Shown one piece after another: positions 15,943 through 26,146 of a stretch of 26,146 nt of DNA. Each line of letters begins with the position of its first letter. Positions within the stretch are counted from its first letter, which is position 1. The notes below the pieces were generated by a model, which made no database searches, was not told where the DNA came from, and saw only the letters and a program-made list of their open reading frames with translations. Made by a program: the position numbers and the translations under genes. This DNA is from a virus. The stretch is from IMG/VR virus record IMGVR_UViG_3300029267_001280, positions 1 to 26,146 of that record, one strand, 5' to 3'.

Positions 15943-17007
15943 TTAGCTTGGCCAGGTGTAATTGGCGGTCAGGTTCTCCAGCCACATACGGAACGTGTCC
16001 GTGCTGGTCTGTTCCTGGGCCACGCCGGTGAACTGAAGCGCCAGCCACCCGCCACCCACCAGCTGAGGCGGTCCGGCTGCCTGCCAGGTGAGCTCGGGGG
16101 CGTAAACGTCCAGCCGCCAGGGGTTGCTCATCCCGGTCGCGTTGCCAGGAGAACGCACGTCGAACTCGAAGGTATCGGTGTGCACGGTCGGGGACCAATC
16201 GATCAGGCCGTCAGCCTCCACGTTGCTGCCCGTGAGCAGGTCCTTGTAGAGGTCAGCGTTCTGCCACTTGTAGGTCCAGGTCACGGACAACACCTGCTGC
16301 TGCAGGATGAAGTCGTCGGGATACGGCGAGCCGATGATCATCTCCTCCTGGGGTGAGGTGTAACTGTTCACCAGGTCGATGACCAGGTTGGTCGCAGGCA
16401 CCTCGACGCCGCCCAGCTTCAGCGAGCCCTGGTGCGACAGCGGCACGCTGGGGTACGATTCGTACGTGTTGCCCCAGGTCCAGGTGTCCACGCCGGTCTC
16501 GGACAGCTTGGGCTCACGGCCCACGAACGTGAACGCGCTGTTGAGGATCGCGCCAGGCGCAGCGGCCAGCCGCATACCTACGCAGCGGGCGTCCTTGACG
16601 ACCTCGCCTACGTTGTCACTGGAGCCGGTCGCACCGGGGATCTCGCGCCGGAGCGACATCCACTCCATGTCGTAGTAGTTGTCGGGCGGGGTCAGGATAT
16701 GCCGGGTCATCCCGGCTTCCGGCGTGTCGGCCACGTCGGAGATCTTCCCGCAGGCTGCATACATCAGCCAGCCGATGACGTTTTCCAGGCGCGGATTCAT
16801 CACGGCCTGGCCAGCGCCAAAAGCCATCTGCTTGTACGCGCCAGTGGGGTGAAAGCCGCCGCCGATCTCAGGCGGGAACTGGCGGATCACCTGTTGGGGA
16901 CCAACGTTGACCTGCATGGCCTTGTGGCGGTAGTACGTGGTCGCCAGCGTGCCCTTCGCAGTCTGTGGCCCATAAGCAAAGATTGATTCGCTTGCAGCAA
17001 CTGTCAT
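15943..17007 (-). CDS. Major tail tube protein (354 aa)
   Basis: ATG at 17007 follows a TGGAGG SD and overlaps the glycosyltransferase stop as ATGA. The protein starts MTVAASESIFAYGPQTAKG, a typical tail tube opening in which an early strand is followed by a 'G..kgt' turn. It is beta-rich throughout, with FGAGQAVMNPRLENVIG and a C-terminal strand set ending FRMWLENLTANYTWPS. Location immediately before the two-frame chaperone and tape-measure genes is the standard place for the tube subunit. The length is larger than lambda gpV (246 aa), so an added surface domain is possible. No sheath gene is adjacent, which points to a non-contractile siphovirus tail. Confidence 0.82.
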   Translation of the reverse strand: MTVAASESIFAYGPQTAKGTLATTYYRHKAMQVNVGPQQVIRQFPPEIGGGFHPTGAYKQMAFGAGQAVMNPRLENVIGWLMYAACGKISDVADTPEAGMTRHILTPPDNYYDMEWMSLRREIPGATGSSDNVGEVVKDARCVGMRLAAAPGAILNSAFTFVGREPKLSETGVDTWTWGNTYESYPSVPLSHQGSLKLGGVEVPATNLVIDLVNSYTSPQEEMIIGSPYPDDFILQQQVLSVTWTYKWQNADLYKDLLTGSNVEADGLIDWSPTVHTDTFEFDVRSPGNATGMSNPWRLDVYAPELTWQAAGPPQLVGGGWLALQFTGVAQEQTSTDTFRMWLENLTANYTWPS

Positions 17008-18071
17008 ATCGAACCTCCATTTACGATCTTGGTGTAGACCCGGTGCCAGTCCTGCCAGTGGGTGGCCATGTCGTACCGCTGGGCATTCTTGTGACCTTGG
17101 ATCTGCAGCTTACGCCGCGTAAATCTGTCCTCGATCAGTTTGCGGATTCCGGCATCCCACGCCTCTGGGGTATGGTCGACCAGCAGCCCATTGTGACGGT
17201 TCTGGACGGTGCCGCGGTAGACCGCACACTTGCTGGCGATCACCGCACAGCCGCCCATCTGTTTCCCAACAGGCCGGGCCGCGCACCACCCCTCAATCGC
17301 CTTGATTGGCGACTTGCTGGCGTTGAACGGGTCATCGGGTATGAGCGGGGCACACAGGATGTCTGCCTGGGCCAGGATGCCTGGATATGCCGTGTACTTG
17401 ACCGGCGCGACGGTCTCAGCGCCGGCGTTCACCAGGTACTCGGACGTGATGCCTGCCACCAGGAACTTGACGTGTGGGTAGTCGGCCAGGATGCCAGGGA
17501 TGACATCCTGAAGAACCATCCAGTCCTGGTAGTGGGACTTGGTGCCGGCCAGCATCACGACGAGCTTGTCCGAGAAAGGCCGCTGGGCTGCCTGGGCCGT
17601 GCTGGCAAACCAAGCGCGGTCGATGGCGTTCGGGATGACGTGGACAGGTATGCGCCCGCCCGTCTCCTCCCGGACTCGCTTGGCCAGTGCTAGTGTGGAC
17701 ACGGTGATGGCGTCTACGTGTTGGATGTAGGGCTCCCAGGTGCGACTCTCGATAAGGTCCGCCTGCCTGTAGCGCCCGCTGTAGTCATCGTCGGTCTCAT
17801 AGACTACCCTGGCCCCACGGCACTTGAGCGCCGCGATTAGCGACTGCCCTGCACCAGGGTCCGCAGAGATTGTCCGATGCAGAACTACGATGTCGTTGCC
17901 GAACACGGTATCCGTATCATCTGCACGCAGATGGGCTGCCGCTTCGTTCACGGTCATCCACCCGCAGCGTGTCTCGCTCTCGTTGTTTAAGTACGTGTAG
18001 GGCAACGTGATTCGATAGACCTCTACCGCGCCTATCTGGTCTCGTTGACCAAAGAGCCCAAGGACTCTCAT
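17004..18071 (-). CDS. GT4-like glycosyltransferase embedded in the morphogenesis genes (355 aa)
   Basis: The start is ATG at 18071 (MRVLGLFGQRDQIGAVEVYR), overlapping the previous stop as ATGA with a GAGCGGGA SD; an upstream in-frame extension lies inside the neighbouring gene and is rejected. Features of the GT-B fold: a Rossmann-like first strand, VVYETDDDYSG (90-99), VHVIPNAID (143-151), VVMLAGTKSHYQDW (171-184), and a donor-binding region with DILCAPL (237-243) and SKSPIKAIEGW (252-262, E260), then GGCAVIAS and NGLLVD. The usual first Glu of the E-x7-E pair is not evident, as in several 'KSPIKxlE' members. It is coupled at both ends to tail genes, so it probably acts during morphogenesis, perhaps glycosylating capsid or tail proteins. 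Donor and acceptor are unknown. Confidence 0.82.
   Translation of the reverse strand: MRVLGLFGQRDQIGAVEVYRITLPYTYLNNESETRCGWMTVNEAAAHLRADDTDTVFGNDIVVLHRTISADPGAGQSLIAALKCRGARVVYETDDDYSGRYRQADLIESRTWEPYIQHVDAITVSTLALAKRVREETGGRIPVHVIPNAIDRAWFASTAQAAQRPFSDKLVVMLAGTKSHYQDWMVLQDVIPGILADYPHVKFLVAGITSEYLVNAGAETVAPVKYTAYPGILAQADILCAPLIPDDPFNASKSPIKAIEGWCAARPVGKQMGGCAVIASKCAVYRGTVQNRHNGLLVDHTPEAWDAGIRKLIEDRFTRRKLQIQGHKNAQRYDMATHWQDWHRVYTKIVNGGSI
17110..17122. repeat. 13-bp inverted repeat TTACGCCGCGTAA, copy 2
   Basis: Identical 13-mer inside the internal glycosyltransferase gene, where it encodes the Thr-Arg-Arg of FTRRKL (residues 317-322). Confidence 0.8.
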
Positions 18072-18709
18072 TCCCGCTCTGTCTGGACTTGAACCCACAC
18101 TGCTCCTTCCCAGATATAGTCGTCGTCCGGGCCACCTGTCGCCACAGCGTGTGACTTGGCCACGTGGGACTCCAGGGCTGTCTCGCCCAGGGCGTCCTGC
18201 AGGCCACCGCACTTCCAGCCGTGGAGGTTGGTCGCCCGGTAGGATTCACAGTACTTCTCAAGCATCGCCCGGAACAGGTTGCCCAGCCGTGTTGCTTCTG
18301 CCTCGGCTTGGTCCGAGTAGATGAAGAAAACTTTGAACGAGACCTTGAACCGCCTCCACCACACCCGGCCGCCGCCGATCTCGTACGGGTAGCCTATCGC
18401 CAGGCTCAAGTTCGTCGCCGAGCTGTCCACCGAGCTGGCTACCGAGTGCTTCCAGCCATCGGACAGGTCGTCCGGGTCGTGCGGCTGGATAGCGATGTGC
18501 GCCGATGGAATTGACAGATCGTCGCTCAATTCCGTAGGGTCATCCTGCAGCCGGCCGAGCTTGATTAGGCATGGCGCGAGGGTACGTGCAACACCCTCGG
18601 AGTCTGTGTAGGCCAACAGCGTCGCGTATTCATCCGGGATGCCGTCGATCATCTTGTCCTGCAGGTGGGCCTTGAGACTCACCATCAAGTCGTTGACGAT
18701 TTCGCCCAT
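18068..18709 (-). CDS. Neck or tail-completion protein (213 aa)
   Basis: ATG at 18709 has a GTAGGAG SD. The order of structural elements (N-terminal helix MGEIVNDLMVSLKAHLQDKM, a set of strands around AHIAIQPHD and RRFKVSFKVFFIYSD, then a helix QAEAEATRLGNLFRAMLEKY, ending WEGAVWVQVQTERE) resembles tail terminator/completion proteins that cap the tail and join it to the head. The place between the head-tail adaptor and the tail tube gene agrees. Sequence similarity to a named family is not recognised, so neck protein versus tail terminator is unresolved. Confidence 0.62.
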   Translation of the reverse strand: MGEIVNDLMVSLKAHLQDKMIDGIPDEYATLLAYTDSEGVARTLAPCLIKLGRLQDDPTELSDDLSIPSAHIAIQPHDPDDLSDGWKHSVASSVDSSATNLSLAIGYPYEIGGGRVWWRRFKVSFKVFFIYSDQAEAEATRLGNLFRAMLEKYCESYRATNLHGWKCGGLQDALGETALESHVAKSHAVATGGPDDDYIWEGAVWVQVQTERE

Positions 18710-18716
18710 AGGTCTC

Positions 18717-19415
18717 CTACTTGTAGTAGCGCGACTCGTGCGGCTGCAGCTTGGTGTACTGCGGTGGCTGATGAGCAGCCAGGATCTCGTAGTACCGCTT
18801 CATGTAGTGCTCCGCCAGGCGTAATAGCGGGTTGTCCTCGGGATCGCCTGATTCGCGCTTGGACTTGTACTGCCCCAGCTTGCTGGCCTTGGCCGAGCCG
18901 GGCTCCAGCGCCTCCGCGCACACGTAGTGCTTGATGGCGCTGCGAGCCCAGCGCGGCACTGAGATAGTAGAGCTGTCGTTCTCCACCTCGGCGTAGTAGG
19001 CAACGTAGTGGACCGTGACCGCCTGGCTGGCTGTCGGGATGCGGGAGAAGGAGATCTTCCCCTGCGGCCACAGGATGTAGCCAAGCGGCTTAGACGAGGT
19101 GGATCGTGTCGAGTTAGGCCATGCCTTGCCAGGCCAGTATTCCAGTCGCGCGAGCCACGTATTTTCTTCCCAGTGCACTGCGTAGACACCAGCGCCTTCC
19201 TCCTCGATGATATCACCGGGAAGGTCGAACTCATAGGTTGTTCCATCTCCCGTGAGATCGAAGTCAGACGCAACGCCCGTGTGCGCGGCGGCGAATGCCT
19301 CCAGCGCATCGTTCACGGCGTCCAGCAGCAAGGTCTCGGAGTACGTCCGGTAAGACGCATCGTCGAGCTTGCGTGCAATCTGAGCTTTGAACGTGGCCCA
19401 CGTAACTGATGCCAT
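18717..19415 (-). CDS. Head-tail adaptor/connector protein (232 aa)
   Basis: ATG at 19415 follows a GAGGTG SD, closely after the capsid stop. The N-terminus MASVTWATFKAQIARKLDDA continues with SYRTYSETLLLDAVNDALEAF-type helices, typical of gp6/gp15-like adaptors that dock on the portal. A beta-rich middle (YEFDLPGDIIEEEGAGVYAV) and a helical end (YMKRYYEILAAHQPP) follow. Position right after the capsid gene fits an adaptor that completes the head after packaging. Length is somewhat above the common 100-200 aa. Confidence 0.7.
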   Translation of the reverse strand: MASVTWATFKAQIARKLDDASYRTYSETLLLDAVNDALEAFAAAHTGVASDFDLTGDGTTYEFDLPGDIIEEEGAGVYAVHWEENTWLARLEYWPGKAWPNSTRSTSSKPLGYILWPQGKISFSRIPTASQAVTVHYVAYYAEVENDSSTISVPRWARSAIKHYVCAEALEPGSAKASKLGQYKSKRESGDPEDNPLLRLAEHYMKRYYEILAAHQPPQYTKLQPHESRYYK

Positions 19416-19430
19416 AGCGCACCTCGCAGG

Positions 19431-20795
19431 CTAGAGGTTCACAACCTGGCCCAGCTTGCGGATCGGGCCAGCGTGGAAGTAGACCTCGAACCGGTTCGGG
19501 TACATCTGCTGGTACTTCATCCGGGCGTCCCAGGCGAACCGGTAGATGGACTGCGTGTCATCGATCGGGGGCGGGTTGTAGGTCTGAGGCGGTTGCAGCA
19601 CGCCGGCGACCACGCCGCGCGGCCCCTTCATGAACACGGTCGCGTGGATCGGACGGGCGTTGGTCACGTACCCATAGACGGTGCCACCCAGGTCGGTCTG
19701 GAAGTAATCGACGGTGATGGGCTCGGTGAACACCAGCTTGCCGGTATCAACGCTGTAGATCTCGCGGGTGATCATCTTCGGGTCCGTGAACAACACGCCA
19801 TTGGTAGCCTTGTACTTGCTATCCAGCGCGCTGTCCCAGGTCGATGCGTCACCCGAGCGATGCACGTGCAGCGTCACGACGTCGCCAGCCTCGAAGCCGG
19901 ACGAATCGGCTACCGAGATGTAGTGCGTGGCGTCGCTCTGGCCAACCTGCCACACGCCCTCAACCTTCGTGGTCGCGGGGTCAGGAGCGCCGTCGCCCAG
20001 AGTGATGCTGGCCGCAATCGTGGTCTGGTGCAGGACCTCGCCACAGTTCCACAACGTCACGGTCGGGTGCTGCGCGAAGCGGACACCCTCGTACTCGCCG
20101 ATCTCATAGTTGAGCATCCGGCGATTGTCCGTGTACTTCAACCGGGAGATGAACTCGCCACTGTCGCTGTCCTTGATCGTGTAGACCGCGGACGGCGAAG
20201 CGATACCCACGATGGGGTTCTGCACCGGGTCGGGCTCAAAGTCCGCGCCCAAGTGCACCGCGCGAGCGATGCCCAGGTCGAAGGTGTCGGTCTTGCTCAG
20301 GGATCCAAAGTCGCTGGCGCTTCCGGCGAACATGACCGTGGTCTTGTTCAAGAAAGCGTTCCGAGCCAGCAGGTCCAGGGAGCCCACCATGTGCGGAGCC
20401 AAACGGCTGGAGACGATGCGACGCAGGCCAGCCTGCGCGTTTTCCTTCCAGTACGTGATCAAATCATCGTACTTATGCATCATCACTTTGTCGCCGTAGT
20501 AGGCCGCGGTGATTTCCAGCTGTCTGGAATCCATGTAGAGCTGGGGCAGCCAGATCTGGCGCGTGCTCAGCTCAGCGATGTTCGGCTCAGGGTCGAGCAC
20601 CTGGGTGAACACCATCTTGCCCGTCCGCTGGGCGGCCAGATTGACGCCGAACGTCACCAGGCCGTAGAACAGGGACGACTGCCGGTACGCTTCCAAAAGC
20701 TCCGGCACGTATACGGTTCTTTGGTTCTTGTCGAAGTCCTCCCACGGCGTATCGCCGTAGGCGGTATCGAGGAACCCACTGGATACTGATGCCAT
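19431..20795 (-). CDS. Major capsid protein, HK97-fold (N4-gp56-like) (454 aa)
   Basis: ATG at 20795 follows a strong AGGAGG SD. The protein has an N-terminal extended arm (YVPELLEAYRQSSLFYGLV, ~29-47), a long spine-helix region (DDLITYWKENAQAGLRRIVS, ~110-129), an A-domain-like part with VGIASPSAVYTIKD, and a C-terminal element YRFAWDARMKYQQMYPNRFE (418-437). These resemble N4-gp56-type HK97-fold capsid proteins. Residues ~255-360 form an extra beta-rich section (SGFEAGDVVTLHVHRSGDAS) that may be an insertion domain displayed on the shell. Scaffold and portal genes directly upstream support the call. No protease gene is seen, so the head may mature without proteolysis. Confidence 0.87.
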   Translation of the reverse strand: MASVSSGFLDTAYGDTPWEDFDKNQRTVYVPELLEAYRQSSLFYGLVTFGVNLAAQRTGKMVFTQVLDPEPNIAELSTRQIWLPQLYMDSRQLEITAAYYGDKVMMHKYDDLITYWKENAQAGLRRIVSSRLAPHMVGSLDLLARNAFLNKTTVMFAGSASDFGSLSKTDTFDLGIARAVHLGADFEPDPVQNPIVGIASPSAVYTIKDSDSGEFISRLKYTDNRRMLNYEIGEYEGVRFAQHPTVTLWNCGEVLHQTTIAASITLGDGAPDPATTKVEGVWQVGQSDATHYISVADSSGFEAGDVVTLHVHRSGDASTWDSALDSKYKATNGVLFTDPKMITREIYSVDTGKLVFTEPITVDYFQTDLGGTVYGYVTNARPIHATVFMKGPRGVVAGVLQPPQTYNPPPIDDTQSIYRFAWDARMKYQQMYPNRFEVYFHAGPIRKLGQVVNL

Positions 20796-20853: not shown

Positions 20854-21564
20854 CTACCCATTCGGGATAGTCTGAGCGGCGTACCACTGCTCCTTCAGCT
20901 CGTTGTACTTTCCCATGTCATCTGCACGCAGAGCGGTCATCATGTCCTGATGCAGTGCATCCAAGCTGGTCGTGCCACCGGACGGTGGCGAACTGGGCGG
21001 CTTGACTCCCTGGGCCATCTGCTCAAACTGCGCCTGGGCGGCCGCAGCCGACTGCGTAGTCATCGTCTGGTTCAGCTGCCCCAGCTTGGCTTCAAAGTCC
21101 TCCATGCTGTCAGCCTGGGGCAACGCGCCGGCCTCCACGAGCGGGGCCAGCGCCGGGAACTTGGCGGCAACCAGCTTGACGCGCTCGACCTCGGCCTGCG
21201 TGGCCGCGAGCTGCGCCTCAAGATCCTGTTTCACGCCATCTGCCGCGGTAGCCTTCTGCCGCAGAAGCTCCAGTTCCTCGGCCACGCCGGTGTCCTTGCC
21301 CTGGAGTGCCTCCAGTTGCTCGGTCAGGGCGGCCTTCTCGCCTTGCTCGACGGCCAACTGCTGGGTCAACCACGCCGTGCGCTTGTCCAGTCCTGCCTGA
21401 ATGCTCTTTTGCTCTGCCAACTGCGATTGGAGAGCCGCGACCTTGTCGGCACCAGCCGTTGGTGCAGGAGCACCGTCCGAAGTGCCGGGGGCCTGGGCGT
21501 TATCGCTTACTCCCTCGGTTCCGGGCGTTGTATCCTGCCCTTGTCCAGTGATTTCGTCGGCCAT
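20854..21564 (-). CDS. Scaffolding protein (236 aa)
   Basis: The better start is ATG at 21564 (MADEITGQGQDTTPG), 7 nt after GGAGG; an ATG at 21570 sits only one base from the SD although it overlaps the portal stop as ATGA. The protein is acidic and low in complexity at the N-terminus (Gly, Pro, Thr, Ala). A long heptad-rich coiled coil follows at ~45-130 (KVAALQSQLAEQKSIQAGLD...QATEVERVKL-like), then a Gln/Ala-rich region, and a short basic/helical C-terminus near KYNELKEQWYAAQ that may bind capsid protein. Position between portal and capsid genes is diagnostic. It guides procapsid assembly and is removed before maturation. Confidence 0.83.
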   Translation of the reverse strand: MADEITGQGQDTTPGTEGVSDNAQAPGTSDGAPAPTAGADKVAALQSQLAEQKSIQAGLDKRTAWLTQQLAVEQGEKAALTEQLEALQGKDTGVAEELELLRQKATAADGVKQDLEAQLAATQAEVERVKLVAAKFPALAPLVEAGALPQADSMEDFEAKLGQLNQTMTTQSAAAAQAQFEQMAQGVKPPSSPPSGGTTSLDALHQDMMTALRADDMGKYNELKEQWYAAQTIPNG

Positions 21565-21566
21565 GC

Positions 21567-23132
21567 TCATTCCTCCTTAGAGATAGATGGTTGCGGCTGG
21601 GATGGCCTGTTCAGCCCCGCTTGCTCGCCCTGCGCGCCGGTCCCCCCGAAGGGGTTGGCATTCATGGGCATCTGCGTGGAGGCTGTGTACTCCATCCAAG
21701 CCTTAATCAAGTTCATTTCCGTCTGGATGTCACGAATGTCACCCATCCGGTTCAATGCTGTTTCGGGTGCGACGAGCCCTGAGTTGATGCGCATGATCAT
21801 CTCGTTCACCAGCTGGTCGTGGTCGCGCGGCATAATCGGCGCCCACTCCTGCCAGATACGCATCTTGTTCAGGTCATCGCGGGTAATTGTGCGGCCACCG
21901 CCAACGTCCAGGCCCTTCTCGGCTGCGATCAGCAAGATCAGGCGCGCCAGGCGGTTCAGGCCGGCAGTCCACAACGTGCGCTCCTGACGCATGTGCACCA
22001 GGAGGGGAAGCGCCCGTAGCGCCAGGGTCAGCGAGGACCGCTGGCTCCCCTCGTCGATGCCATACAGCACCGGGGGCGTGTATGCCTCGGTGCGGGCGAT
22101 GTTGAGCAAATCCAGCGCCCAGGTCACAGTCGTGTTGTCCGTCGTCACACCGTTGGGGTAGACAATCTCGGGCGGGTCCATCCCCGGAGCGGCCTGGCCC
22201 AGGTTCAAGAGCGGCACGCCGTGACTCATCCGGTTGACCGTGATCTTGCGGGTATTCTTGATCGCCGGCATCATTCGGGCGTTCTCGCTCACGATGTCAC
22301 CCACGTCGGCGAGACGCTCGTTGATCTCCTGGGCGATCTCTTGCTTCCCGTGCAGGAGAGAAATTCCGTAAAATTCGCCGGCGCGGAGGTGGGGGATGTA
22401 CGTGTAAGGCACCTGGCCGCCCAGCGGAACGCCGGTCATGTGCAAGCCGCCCCAGCTAATCTGGTGGCCCTCCACGGTGATCTCGTAGTGATCTCCCCGC
22501 CACCACTCCTGGTAAAGTGCGTTTTCGTAGGATGCGTCGACGCCATACAACAGCTTGGCCTGTCGCCGGGTGATCTCGTAGCACACGAACGTCTCGGGTA
22601 GCTCCCAGTGGCGCGTAGGCGCGGGCACCGGAAAGAAGTACTCCGGGAGCACGTGCTCAAGCCGGATCGGCAGCTGGCCGTCCGCCTCGCGCGAGGGGTC
22701 ATAGAACGCACCAAAGATGCAGCCGCCAAGGATCTGCGAGATCAGGCCCGCCTCCTGCTGGAGGGCGCGCCCGTCGTTCTCGTACCACACGCGGTTGAGA
22801 AAGTCGCTCAGAATGGCCCCCAGCTCGCGGTCTGCCTCCGGCGTCTCGCGGCCCCAGGGCTCCACAACGGCCTCGACCAACGGGTCATTGCCGTCCTGGA
22901 CCTCGCCGAACAGGAAGCCGGCGTGTAGCAGGCACGGCATGTTGTACGGGTTCAGCCTCAGCGGGTACTTGAGGGAGGTGTCTGTGTCAGACACAGTAGA
23001 GTCGAGCCAGCCGCCATCGAAGTGACGCCAGTACTCCCAGTACTTGCTCCGCTGCGAGGCCCAATCCGCCGTGGGGTAGTCCCCAGGCGCTTGCGTCTCA
23101 GGATCACGAGAAAAGACAACGCGATCTGCCAT
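21567..23132 (-). CDS. Portal protein (521 aa)
   Basis: The start is ATG at 23132 (MADRVVFSRDPETQAPG), overlapping the TAA of the 69-aa gene as TAATG with an AGAAGG SD; a longer in-frame ORF from 23207 lies inside that gene and is rejected. The protein has the portal layout: N-terminal wing with LKYPLRLNPYNMPCLLHAGF, a helix-rich middle (GAILSDFLNRVWYEND, YGISLLHGKQEIAQEINERL), the stem/crown region with long helices after ~360, and a Pro/Gln-rich C-terminus (GLNRPSQPQPSISKEE). Size and place between terminase and scaffold fit the dodecameric DNA-entry portal of the head. Confidence 0.86.
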   Translation of the reverse strand: MADRVVFSRDPETQAPGDYPTADWASQRSKYWEYWRHFDGGWLDSTVSDTDTSLKYPLRLNPYNMPCLLHAGFLFGEVQDGNDPLVEAVVEPWGRETPEADRELGAILSDFLNRVWYENDGRALQQEAGLISQILGGCIFGAFYDPSREADGQLPIRLEHVLPEYFFPVPAPTRHWELPETFVCYEITRRQAKLLYGVDASYENALYQEWWRGDHYEITVEGHQISWGGLHMTGVPLGGQVPYTYIPHLRAGEFYGISLLHGKQEIAQEINERLADVGDIVSENARMMPAIKNTRKITVNRMSHGVPLLNLGQAAPGMDPPEIVYPNGVTTDNTTVTWALDLLNIARTEAYTPPVLYGIDEGSQRSSLTLALRALPLLVHMRQERTLWTAGLNRLARLILLIAAEKGLDVGGGRTITRDDLNKMRIWQEWAPIMPRDHDQLVNEMIMRINSGLVAPETALNRMGDIRDIQTEMNLIKAWMEYTASTQMPMNANPFGGTGAQGEQAGLNRPSQPQPSISKEE

Positions 23133-23341
23133 TAGCCTTCTTTCGCAACTGCGATAGTGATCGTCCCACCAGACCGGTCTGGTATGTGGGTGGGCAGCTC
23201 TTTCCATTGCCGCGTGAGCTGGTCAAAGACTTGGATACCGTGCTCGGTGATCCTGATCCCAAAGCGGGATAAGCTACCGCTCTCGCGGCGCTGGTAGAGC
23301 GCTCCTCTTTTGCCGATGTAGAAACCGTGTTCTGTATTCAT
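23132..23341 (-). CDS. Small protein of unknown function (69 aa)
   Basis: ATG at 23341 (MNTEHGFYIGKRGALYQRRE) and a TAA overlapping the portal ATG suggest a translated gene. The predicted protein has short strands (RFGIRITEHGIQVFDQLTRQ) and a basic N-terminal half. The 8 bases between its start and the T-tract of the terminator (GTTTACCT) hold no SD, so its translation start is doubtful. I do not recognise a family. Confidence 0.55.
   Translation of the reverse strand: MNTEHGFYIGKRGALYQRRESGSLSRFGIRITEHGIQVFDQLTRQWKELPTHIPDRSGGTITIAVAKEG
23168..23183. repeat. 16-bp perfect palindrome inside the 69-aa gene
   Basis: ACCAGACCGGTCTGGT is its own reverse complement and is loosely flanked by CCC and GGG. 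It could be a protein-binding site, but one such palindrome per window of this size is near chance. Confidence 0.4.
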
Positions 23342-23458: not shown

Positions 23459-23665
23459 CTACGGGCTGCTGTTCGATTGAAAGCATTGTACCATACTTAG
23501 GGCCTGCCGCGCCAGGGTTTTGAGCGACTTTTTTCGGACTTCTGAGGCAGAAAGCTCCGGTCCCACTATAGAGATCTTCACAACGTGCCCGCCATGCACC
23601 GAAACCAGCCAGCGGCCCTGGTTTTTGAGCACTTCCTCGAAAAATGCCGCGTCTCTGGGGTCCAT
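23459..23665 (-). CDS. Small protein of unknown function downstream of terminase (68 aa)
   Basis: ATG at 23665 (MDPRDAAFFEEVLKNQGRWL) shares its A with the terminase TAA stop (TAATG), and a perfect GGGAGGAACC SD sits upstream inside the terminase gene, so translation is likely. The protein has an N-terminal helix, two strands (RWLVSVHGGHVVKISIVG), and a helix with basic residues (SEVRKKSLKTLARQAL). No family recognised. Coupling to the terminase gene could mean a packaging accessory, but this is only positional. Confidence 0.7.
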   Translation of the reverse strand: MDPRDAAFFEEVLKNQGRWLVSVHGGHVVKISIVGPELSASEVRKKSLKTLARQALSMVQCFQSNSSP

Positions 23666-25365
23666 TAGCGGTTCCTCCCAGCATTGCGTATGTGACGCGG
23701 GTTATCGCTGCGGTGTCTATGGTACGGCCCGTCCTCCTCGACGATTTCGAGTTCGTTCTCGTCGTCGGCATTCTCAGCCTCGTCGATCACAAACAGGCGG
23801 TTCAGTACATCACCGGCCATAAAGAGCGTAGAGGCAATGTCCTGGCGTAGCTTGGAGTCCGGCATCCGCCAGCCACCCAACTGGAGCCAGATCCCCTGGA
23901 TGCCCTTGGGCATGAGCAAGAGTTGCTTGCCCAAGATCAGCTTGAGGGCCACGACCATGCGCATCTTGTTGCTATTGACCTGGATGCCTTCCATCAACAG
24001 GCCCTTCTGGGCGAACACTAGCTCATCGAAGCCCTTCTGGATACCCGTGGCGTCGAAGGCTGAGTAGATGGGCTTGTATGCCTTGTACCATTCCTCCATC
24101 CGGTTGATGAAAGGCCAGTAGGAGCCGTGGCCATCCACCCAGTCGAAGGCGACCAGTTCGGCTGGCACATACGGGAAGCCCGTTACCCGGATCACCATGA
24201 TCGCGGCGCTGTTACGGTCGGGCGGGCTGTTCTGACCGGGATCGCCGATCAGGACGTAGCGGTCGAACTCTGTGGGCGGGGTGATCCACCTCACGACGCC
24301 AGCGCGGCGCATTTCCTCTTTCTCGTAGCCGGGCAACCCGTTGGCACGTGCATTCTCCATCACGTCATCCAACGCGAGGCACTGACATGGCCCCAGTAGT
24401 GCCGGTGTGAACTCCTTGCCCTTGGGCAGCGGCCGCTCGTTCATCAGGAGTTGCTTGCGCTTGTCCGGGTCGGTGATTCGGCGCTTGATAGCCTTCAGCT
24501 GCTCCTTGGTGATCAGCGGGTTATCATAGATTGTCAGGCCGATAGACAGATAGTCATCGGGTAGCTCCTCCACCTGGTCGAAGCGTTCCCACAGCGCCGG
24601 GTCGTAGCCGGCGTTGGCCAGGACGATCAGCTTGCCCATCCGGGCACGGCCACCCGCCTGGCCACGCATACGAGTGCCCAGGTTGCCCATGACCTCCTCC
24701 AGGTCGGTGTTTGCCAGGTGCATCTTGTCTGACTCGTCGATGACGATCACGTCGCCGGACCAGGAGTAGATCTTGCCGCCGTTCTCATCGGCGGACATGA
24801 ACTCCAGAGTAGAGCCGTTGTAGTAGGTGATTTTGGGATACGGGCGCTCGACAAACTTGACGATAAAGTTGTGGCCATGGCGGGGCGTGCTATCTCGGTT
24901 CTCCCAGTCCAGCAACTCCATCCTGATGGCATCAAACATCTGCTTGGCCTGCCAGCCTACAGGGGCCACGTTCATTGCCTTGAACCCTGGGATCATGCAG
25001 GCCCAGTAATTCAGGGCGGCACCCATGCCCAGCGTCTTGCCGGTCCCGACCGCAGCGATGACCGTGGCATCTAGCCGGTTATCGTGCGCCAGGACCGCCT
25101 GCCAGGAGAGAGGGACCCACGGTACGTAATCCCCGCGTTCCCGATCCAAGTCCCACTCGTCTGGATTTACTCGGTCGTCCCACTCTGGCGAGAAGATGTT
25201 GGTCACGATCTCCCGATTATTCCACACCAGGTCCCAACGGGGAGTACCATTGATCGGCGCGTGGTAGTGGGAAGTGAACGTGGCGAAGCCGCCTGTCTCC
25301 AACTTGGAGGCGGCTTCCATGATTTGCACATCAGTTTTAGTTAGCTTGTAGCGCCGTAATCCCAT
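23665..25365 (-). CDS. terL: Terminase large subunit (566 aa)
   Basis: ATG at 25365 follows an AGGAG SD. ATPase motifs: Walker A AAVGTGKT (104-111), Walker B VIVIDE (206-211, D210 and E211 catalytic) and a coupling motif LANAG (249-253). The nuclease half has VLIGDPG (D375) and SAFDATG (D438) as RNase H-like metal-binding acids, with a later acid likely near LRQDIAST. The enzyme pumps DNA into the prohead through the portal and cuts concatemers. Length is in the normal 450-650 range. An acidic stretch near the C-terminus (DEAENADDENELEIVEEDG) precedes a basic tail, perhaps for portal or DNA contact. No small terminase is recognised in the window. The terminase type (cos, pac) cannot be told from the sequence. 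Confidence 0.93.
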   Translation of the reverse strand: MGLRRYKLTKTDVQIMEAASKLETGGFATFTSHYHAPINGTPRWDLVWNNREIVTNIFSPEWDDRVNPDEWDLDRERGDYVPWVPLSWQAVLAHDNRLDATVIAAVGTGKTLGMGAALNYWACMIPGFKAMNVAPVGWQAKQMFDAIRMELLDWENRDSTPRHGHNFIVKFVERPYPKITYYNGSTLEFMSADENGGKIYSWSGDVIVIDESDKMHLANTDLEEVMGNLGTRMRGQAGGRARMGKLIVLANAGYDPALWERFDQVEELPDDYLSIGLTIYDNPLITKEQLKAIKRRITDPDKRKQLLMNERPLPKGKEFTPALLGPCQCLALDDVMENARANGLPGYEKEEMRRAGVVRWITPPTEFDRYVLIGDPGQNSPPDRNSAAIMVIRVTGFPYVPAELVAFDWVDGHGSYWPFINRMEEWYKAYKPIYSAFDATGIQKGFDELVFAQKGLLMEGIQVNSNKMRMVVALKLILGKQLLLMPKGIQGIWLQLGGWRMPDSKLRQDIASTLFMAGDVLNRLFVIDEAENADDENELEIVEEDGPYHRHRSDNPRHIRNAGRNR

Positions 25366-25367
25366 AC

Positions 25368-25805
25368 CTACTCCTGTATCACAACGTCGCGCCCGGCAGC
25401 GAACTGCCCGGCGTGCGCCTCACACATCAGCAAGTCAATCGCGCCGTTGTCGAGGTGTTTGATCCGGCAACCGCAGGAGGGGGCGTCAACCTGGTCGGCC
25501 GTCGCCTCCTTGACCAGGGCCAGAAACAGGGCGGCATAGTTCCGCAGGTCGTGCACGCGGCCCTCGATGCTCTCCTCGGATTGCTCGTGGCCAACCGCGG
25601 CGTAGGACGCCAGGGAGGCAAAGTGCTTATACATATAGACCATGCAGACCTGTAACGGCGTGAGGCCCAGAAACTCTGCGCACACCTTGAAGTTACGCAG
25701 CGCATCCTCGTCACCCTGGGCATACTCGCGGCCCTTGGTCAGGTTGATCTCGTTCTCCGCCGTGACCAGTCCTTCGACCAGCTTGAGATAGTCATCGCGT
25801 ACCAT
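25368..25805 (-). CDS. DUF1599/MazG-like all-alpha protein with Cys-rich tail (145 aa)
   Basis: ATG at 25805 overlaps the preceding stop as TGATG and has a GAGGTGG SD at 7 nt; a TTG one codon earlier is less likely. Residues ~20-95 (KGREYAQGDEDALRNFKVCA, VYMYKHFASLASY, IEGRVHDLRNYAALF) match the pattern of phage 'nucleotide modification associated' DUF1599-type domains: K-x-x-[ED]-Y-x-x-G, N-F, then K-x-x-R-x8-D-x-x-N-Y. The C-terminal 35 residues hold CGCRIKHLDNG and MCEAHAG, a possible zinc-binding knuckle. The family is suspected to act on nucleotides, but its reaction is not established and no function is claimed. Confidence 0.6.
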   Translation of the reverse strand: MVRDDYLKLVEGLVTAENEINLTKGREYAQGDEDALRNFKVCAEFLGLTPLQVCMVYMYKHFASLASYAAVGHEQSEESIEGRVHDLRNYAALFLALVKEATADQVDAPSCGCRIKHLDNGAIDLLMCEAHAGQFAAGRDVVIQE

Positions 25806-26146
25806 CAAGCCACCTCGTAGATCGTCTCAAGGGCGTCAATTTTGTCATTCCACTGCAAGCAGTGCTCTGCATATTGCAGACACCCGGCTTCCAGATTACG
25901 CCGCGTAATTTCGTCCTCCATCATCTGCTGGGCAGCCGAGAGGACATCGTCGTAGTTGTACCCTGCCAGCAAGCAGTTCACCCCGTGGTGCAGGTCGTCA
26001 TCACCTTCTATGATCCCACGGACACAGGTCGTGCCGCAAGACATCGCCTCCACTGGCGCGCAGGCCCGCCCCTCGTACTTGCTGGCCTTGAGCAGGAACA
26101 GGCAGCTGGAGTACATCTGGCGCATTTGCTCAGTGGCGGGCACCAG
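25805..26146 (-). CDS. Glycosyltransferase, GT4-like, C-terminal part only
   Basis: The frame enters from the right edge and ends at TGA 25805, giving 113 visible residues. The donor-binding motif is clear: KASKYEGRACAPVEAMSCG has the E-x7-E pair, followed by a strand TTCVRGI, a DDLHHGVNCLLAG loop and a C-terminal helix with ITRRNLEAGCLQYAEHCLQW. It is therefore the second Rossmann half of a GT-B enzyme. The N-terminal half is outside the window, so any methionine near the edge is not the real start. With the internal glycosyltransferase it makes two sugar-transfer genes in one morphogenesis region. Substrate unknown. Confidence 0.85.
   Translation of the reverse strand: MVPATEQMRQMYSSCLFLLKASKYEGRACAPVEAMSCGTTCVRGIIEGDDDLHHGVNCLLAGYNYDDVLSAAQQMMEDEITRRNLEAGCLQYAEHCLQWNDKIDALETIYEVA
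25896..25908. repeat. 13-bp inverted repeat TTACGCCGCGTAA, copy 3
   Basis: Identical 13-mer inside the partial glycosyltransferase gene at the right edge, encoding the Thr-Arg-Arg of ITRRNL at the equivalent C-terminal position of the second glycosyltransferase. Confidence 0.8.

Follow-up and report, generated by a model that had tools for sequence, protein, structure and literature searches.

Why should a tailed phage carry a glycosyltransferase (GT) gene in the middle of its head and tail genes? The question is raised by IMG/VR virus record IMGVR_UViG_3300029267_001280, a stretch of 26,146 bases (the window) in which the late gene block is read on the minus strand. A gene at 17004..18071 lies there between a tail-terminator-like gene, designated n2, and the tail tube gene. 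We found that this gene is real, that it encodes a GT-B-fold glycosyltransferase, expected from its family and fold to be catalytic, and that it belongs to the head-tail module and is inherited vertically with it. We believe that its product is probably a soluble, nucleotide-sugar-dependent enzyme, made together with the late structural proteins, which puts sugar on a protein of the phage particle. The basis for this reading is the fixed place of the gene in the head-tail module, its inheritance with the capsid genes, its dispensability for joining terminator and tube, the glycan cassettes that accompany it and the position of distant homologues behind genes for the major capsid protein (MCP).

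The enzyme and its inheritance

The assignment of the gene as a GT, already made in the original prediction, was borne out by profile and structure comparison. The protein scored 32.2 bits against Pfam PF13692 (Glyco_trans_1_4), above the cut-off of 27, and matched PHROGs family phrog_7162 (‘glycosyltransferase’, 2e-21) over residues 14-332. An AlphaFold (AF2) model built with 54 homologues had a mean pLDDT of 93.3, with a pair of Rossmann-like domains making up the whole protein. It was closest to MshA (Z 27.3, 319 residues aligned, rmsd 3.8), followed by other retaining GT-B enzymes (PimA, Z 26.9; HepE, 26.3; BshA, 26.2). Foldseek also returned SdgB, a protein-acting enzyme (structure title: O-glycosylated SD peptide), amid many GTs whose acceptors are small molecules or glycans. 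Identity to these structural matches was 12-20% at Z scores of about 23-27, and the score against the NCBIfam MshA model was 21.8 bits, far under its cut-off of 462.5. MshA, PimA, BshA, HepE and SdgB thus share the whole-length GT-B fold with the window GT, while identity is low and the first Glu of E-x7-E and the Arg/Lys pair do not line up in a profile alignment (see below).

Relatives were found by searches with the GT, capsid and tube proteins; below, labels with L denote loci and those with G denote contigs. The GT occupied the site between n2 and tube in 18 contigs, window included. Ten of their GT sequences are distinct; the nine other than that of the window were 34-62% identical to it, and one contig (L011/L007) comes from the same phage, with 100% identity across the shared genes. 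One locus from the first GT search, L005/L010, proved to be a chance peptide match and was discarded. Searches with capsid or tube alone also reached loci that hold the GT at this site (L018, L023, L025), so the pattern is not an artefact of GT-based searching. A wider capsid search yielded 75 loci, 74 of which were used for a synteny count (L011 was omitted as the same contig as L001). MCP, n1 (a neck-like gene), n2 and tube were seen in 56 of the 74, always in that order and on one strand, with the GT present in 15. Matches to the GT were limited to the clade of the window; none was found in L145-L190. At 39 of the 41 GT-minus loci the n2 and tube frames adjoin. Another, L189, has a 250-nt gap ahead of a split tube frame.

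Since most GT-minus relatives join terminator and tube directly, the GT is not needed for that joining. This agrees with the earlier view that assembly requires no sugar enzyme at this position, and makes a role as an assembly factor unlikely. Separately, n2 and tube of GT-minus locus L147 are separated by 3.3 kb occupied by other small genes (L147:11380-14724); with such inserts at the terminator-tube junction, the site may take up different inserts.

Phylogenetic analysis placed the GT firmly with the capsid gene. A tree of 51 MCP rows (50 loci plus the window) was built after dropping duplicate contigs, truncated capsid genes, loci without the site and some thinned GT-minus loci. All GT rows fell into one 19-row clade with SH-aLRT support of 99 (15 with the GT, 2 unknown, 2 without), and the label changed three times on the tree, for example by one gain and two losses. 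The two GT-minus rows of the clade are L125, whose capsid is 67% identical, and L127, with 51%; they have 46 and 10 nt, respectively, between n2 and tube. There tblastn gave only chance-level matches to the GT, with no remnant in L125. Among the 10 non-identical members (45 pairs), pairwise identity of the GT correlated with that of MCP, tube, n1, n2 and portal at Pearson coefficients of 0.956, 0.971, 0.954, 0.949 and 0.938, compared with 0.955 for MCP versus tube. The clade also formed one group in the GT tree.

A fixed site together with divergence congruent with the capsid genes indicates vertical inheritance and not a passing moron. We therefore rejected, for the clade of the window, the hypothesis of a sporadic, independently acquired gene. 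The sequence match to phrog_7162 stands, whereas the PHROGs filing of that family as ‘moron/auxiliary’ is unfit for this clade because the gene is fixed and vertically inherited in the head-tail module.

Gene neighbourhood and junctions

The transcript order, 5′ to 3′, is second GT (cut), o25368, terminase, portal, scaffold-like, major capsid, n1, n2, GT and tail tube. Two small genes follow the tube gene on its 3′ side, then a tape measure gene (assigned by size and position) and presumed tail-tip genes (by position). The features are as follows.

25805..26146, minus strand: second GT, C-terminal part, cut at the window end (complete as 329 amino acids in L007/L011)
25368..25808, minus strand: o25368, a family without assigned function between second GT and terminase (phrog_6802, unknown function, 1.8e-14)
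23665..25365, minus strand: terminase large subunit, TerL (phrog_2, 8.6e-17)
21567..23207, minus strand: portal protein (phrog_64, 2e-7; PF05133 below cut-off)
20854..21570, minus strand: scaffold-like protein (position and conservation; without confident family match)
19431..20795, minus strand: MCP (phrog_1357, 3e-7)
18717..19415, minus strand: neck/head-completion-like n1 (phrog_399, ‘structural protein’, head and packaging, 3.3e-4; synteny)
18068..18709, minus strand: tail-terminator-like n2, ATGA overlap with the GT start (AF2 model and Foldseek)
18072..18098, minus strand: possible 9-codon N-terminal extension of the GT, alternative start GTG at 18098 with AAGGAG ahead (sequence reading)
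17004..18071, minus strand: GT-B-fold GT, 355 amino acids, ATG start (PF13692, phrog_7162, AF2 model, PDB matches)
17014..17018, minus strand: GGAGG Shine-Dalgarno-like motif of the tube gene, within the last GT codons (sequence)
15943..17007, minus strand: tail tube protein, ATGA overlap with the GT stop (PF18906, 2.5e-7; phrog_290, 1.4e-9)

The original prediction had set the GT between a neck-like gene and a tail tube gene. The tube assignment holds; the upstream neighbour, n2, resembles a tail terminator in its predicted structure. It matched no sequence family confidently in Pfam or PHROGs. Its AF2 model (pLDDT 79.8) gave 8 Foldseek matches at E ≤ 0.001, all of them phage tail or neck structures, and compared with the T5 tail terminator p142 the TM score was 0.42-0.45 by query and 0.53-0.56 by target. 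We assign n2 as terminator-like with moderate confidence.

The same prediction described the GT as translationally coupled to its neighbours through ATGA overlaps. Both overlaps are present in the window, each of 4 nt. That at n2/GT is kept in 3 of the 10 distinct members (window included) and that at GT/tube in 7 of 10, the remaining three having gaps of 2-4 nt. A Shine-Dalgarno-like motif stands ahead of the tube start in all 10 members, and the portal/scaffold and o25368/second GT pairs in the window likewise overlap by 4 nt. The variable overlaps, the constant tube motif and the other 4-nt pairs point to a tight late operon and not to a special coupling of the GT. In the relative L025 (L025:6952-6982) the GT apparently starts at a GTG codon located 31 nt inside the tail-terminator-like gene, with AAGGAG ahead; this may be compared with the GTG at 18098 of the window. 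At another junction, between the capsid gene and n1, L128:4229-4960 and G006:30516-31223 encode a small protein with a Cys-rich ‘CxCGNYIxVRGYxLR’ motif, by its look a homing or DNA-binding insert.

TerL and tail tube had zero matches among 50,697 phage records, and MCP had only two weak partial ones. No host was found for the window's phage, and no actinobacterial link. The sole cellular contig found with a related head-tail module is L120 (JAHLLR010000018.1, a Deltaproteobacteria metagenome-assembled genome), which may be a prophage or a phage contig binned wrongly. Its module is distant and GT-minus, and it is not evidence for the host of the window's phage.

Glycan cassettes and distant homologues

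The second GT that the original prediction noted upstream of the terminase-side genes is indeed there. In L011/L007 the complete protein (329 amino acids; PF13439 above cut-off) is preceded by a third enzyme, of GT2 type (PF00535, 5e-15). Extra GTs upstream of terL were found in 6 of the 7 examined clade contigs that reach this region (G001, G002, G006, G007, G009, L125). G002 carries a relative of the second GT (PF13692 below cut-off). In G006 a DegT aminotransferase (PF01041, 1.6e-89, with PseC as its best NCBIfam match, under the cut-off), methyltransferases and two further GT2 enzymes accompany a protein in which sulfotransferase and GT2 are fused, and G007 has the same three PF00535 matches. 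The GTs of the large G009 cassette (L119:627-11707; G009:26000-41962) are of GT4 type (below cut-off), GT9 and, twice, GT2. It also encodes methyltransferases, a sulfotransferase, a radical-SAM/B12 protein and a protein like a heptose-adenylyltransferase or a cytidylyltransferase, which passes the PF01467 cut-off but stays under those of the NCBIfam equivalogs. The exception is G008, with a single PF00535 match at 52 kb, on the other strand and not upstream of terL. No PF00535 match was found in G003 and G010-G013; these contigs start no further upstream than the terminase or portal region and say little on the upstream cassette. Outside the clade, in a search for these two GT families, PF00535 and PF13692 each occurred in 1 of 24 contigs, the same one. 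As the clade is one evolutionary group, its association with cassettes counts as few independent events. The likely task of the cassette enzymes (GT2- and GT4-type GTs, aminotransferase, sulfotransferase, methyltransferases) is to lengthen or decorate a glycan.

The GT might alter a host surface glycan late in infection, giving superinfection exclusion or release from receptor-bearing debris, in the manner of O-antigen or teichoic-acid conversion. Many of its fold neighbours have envelope glycans or lipids as substrates (PimA, TarM), the heptose-adenylyltransferase-like and GT9 genes of G009 are typical of envelope glycans, and passages of PMC10202952 list such a change among the possible roles of GTs in freshwater actinophages. 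We consider it unlikely, at roughly one chance in five, because the GT is placed in the late head-tail module, is inherited with the capsid genes and has distant homologues behind capsid genes. Moreover, no GtrA/Wzx-type flippase was matched in the 18 cassette proteins scanned, a part of the cassette genes; one of the 18, a 115-amino-acid G009 protein, has no family.

GT-B enzymes glycosylate DNA in T-even phages, and the GT could in the same way act on hypermodified phage DNA. This role is often given to phage GTs, as in passages of PMC12619734 and PMC10202952. A gene of PF00303 (thymidylate synthase/hydroxymethylase type), the only such route searched, was found in 0 of 9 clade contigs (11-85 kb, all possibly incomplete), and the GT sits with late structural genes and not with DNA metabolism. 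We regard a DNA substrate as very unlikely.

Distant homologues carry the link to capsid genes beyond the clade. The set comprised L036-L102, taken from the best 80 of 91 relatives, plus MW202801, at 23-32% identity to the GT; grouping at 70% identity gave 36 clusters. All 27 distant records tested matched phrog_7162. The alignment of GT homologues omits L064 and L068 (internal stop), L051 and L057 (overlong) and near-duplicate loci; that of neighbour proteins holds 72 of 74 (two of L101 were omitted as near-duplicates), and seven GT loci yielded no neighbours. An MCP gene was located in 23 of the 36 clusters (13 in the first pass, 10 more by phrog_10), and none was found in 13. It lay on the same strand as the GT in 23 of 23 clusters, a count whose weight is limited since late operons are co-directional anyway, and upstream of it in 20. 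In 17 of the 23 it was no more than 4.1 kb upstream; random placement on the same contigs gave 2.3 clusters on average and never more than 9 in 20,000 trials. Direct neighbours of distant GTs include the capsid types phrog_10 (L040, L046), phrog_334 (L045) and phrog_1357 (L090). In L089-L101, a separate lineage of 13 contigs forming one cluster, the GT lies directly 3′ of the MCP gene; the order in L090:5878-10371 is scaffold, MCP, GT, a 214-amino-acid protein without PHROG match that overlaps the GT by 4 nt, and Dit.

Candidate role on the virion

On the reading that we favour, the GT, expressed from the same operon as the structural proteins, would meet new capsid and tail proteins in the cytoplasm. 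There it would use a nucleotide sugar to glycosylate MCP, tail tube or another late protein. The enzymes of the upstream cassette, which differ between lineages, would then extend or modify that sugar. Catalytic activity, solubility, a protein acceptor and this order of enzymes are what we infer.

Several observations weigh against glycosylation of the virion. The acceptor, the donor sugar and the glycan are so far candidates only. Most structural matches of the GT act on small molecules, lipids or polysaccharides and not on proteins. Columns kept in GT-bearing phages and changed in GT-minus ones showed no clear excess of Ser, Thr, Asn or Tyr in MCP, tube, n1, n2 or portal; by counts without a statistical test, Ser/Thr made up 3 of 17 such columns in MCP and 1 of 6 in tube. 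L125, which has no GT at the site (L125:10087-10137), keeps sulfotransferase-like (below cut-off), GT2 and GT4 genes upstream of terL (L125:50-3135), so the cassette is not strictly dependent on the GT, unless the GT has moved to an unassembled part. The idea that the GT is an obligatory first step for the cassette is weakened by the same contig.

The distant set has its own exceptions. On contigs of at least 25 kb the MCP gene was near the GT in 7 of 13 clusters. It was downstream of the GT in 2 clusters (L038, L047), 11-12 kb upstream in L067, L071 and L077, and 38 kb away on a linear contig in L063. In addition, the first-pass MCP queries were taken from GT neighbours, many clusters are related phages, a relatedness that may in part account for the position behind MCP, and some contigs are short.

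The active site also counts on this side. An E-x7-E motif and a phosphate-binding Arg/Lys pair are canonical for retaining GT4 enzymes of the PimA/MshA type. A profile alignment to MshA and 5i45, which is not a side-chain superposition, put the first Glu at D246/D247, before a five-residue insert, and gave no counterpart of the Arg/Lys pair. Activity is uncertain because neither was found at the profile-aligned positions. The second Glu is kept as E260, and the insert ahead of it carries a conserved N-x-x-K-S-x-x-K-x-x-E pattern. Across the 54 homologues D183 is invariant and K253, S254 and E260 are nearly so; H180 is invariant within the clade.

These departures from the GT4 motifs, and the fixed position between terminator-like and tube genes, would suit a degenerate or non-catalytic protein retained for a structural or chaperone-like role where head and tail are joined. 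The conserved residues argue against it, as do the relatives in which terminator joins tube without the GT and the further GT genes that accompany it. We judge a non-catalytic role highly improbable, slightly more so than a DNA substrate.

Virion glycosylation by phage-encoded enzymes has precedents, and in function the closest known system is that of mycobacteriophages. The GTs of mycobacteriophages Che8 (gp108-110), Corndog (gp38) and Myrna were reported by Freeman et al. 2023 to glycosylate capsid and tail tube, according to passages of PMC12363180 and PMC12619734. In those passages tailed-phage virion glycosylation is named for few isolates, these three. The original prediction had drawn the same parallel with actinobacterial phages. 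The genomic context supports its virion reading, whereas the likeness is a loose one; its idea that sugars might hide the virion from antibodies or receptors is a conjecture. Che8 and the window's clade both have several phage-encoded GTs together with a methyltransferase domain. By Pfam, however, gp108-110 are a GT2 plus methyltransferase, a GT2-like protein (below cut-off) and a GT25, families other than that of the window GT. Comparison of gp108 with the window GT by hhalign indicated no relation (probability 0.3%); gp109 and gp110 were compared by Pfam family only. The Che8 genes lie at 56.2-58.7 kb of 59.5 kb, at the right genome end and, we presume, away from the structural genes, in contrast to the window GT amid structural genes; no actinobacterial host is indicated for the window's phage either. 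The window GT would thus work like Che8-type virion glycosylation without belonging to that enzyme family.

Podoviridae sp. MW202801 (Manatee Spring) has a homologous GT that is 23.5% identical over 83%. Around it, in the stretch that the annotation bounds by the MCP and phage stabilization genes, are a further GT and PhyH-like, methyltransferase and NodB-like genes. That phage is of another type, with its cassette behind MCP, whereas the clade of the window has the cassette upstream of terL. In the literature covered, titles and abstracts with few subscription papers, we found no GT between tail terminator and tail tube and no GT-B family tied to capsid genes.

More broadly, and tentatively, the GT-B family filed among the morons may be a dedicated virion-glycosylation enzyme kept just behind the capsid genes in several unrelated tailed-phage lineages. 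In the clade of the window it is fixed in the head-tail module, and the fast-changing cassette at the head of the operon, with amino-sugar, sulfated, methylated or heptose-like glycans, may give each lineage its own sugar coat; we hold this wider proposal to be somewhat less probable than its negation. Should virions indeed be the target of this GT-B family, phages with a sugar coat would occur throughout environmental lineages and could be recognised by their gene order, and GT-minus sisters found in nature, L125 among them, would permit a direct comparison.

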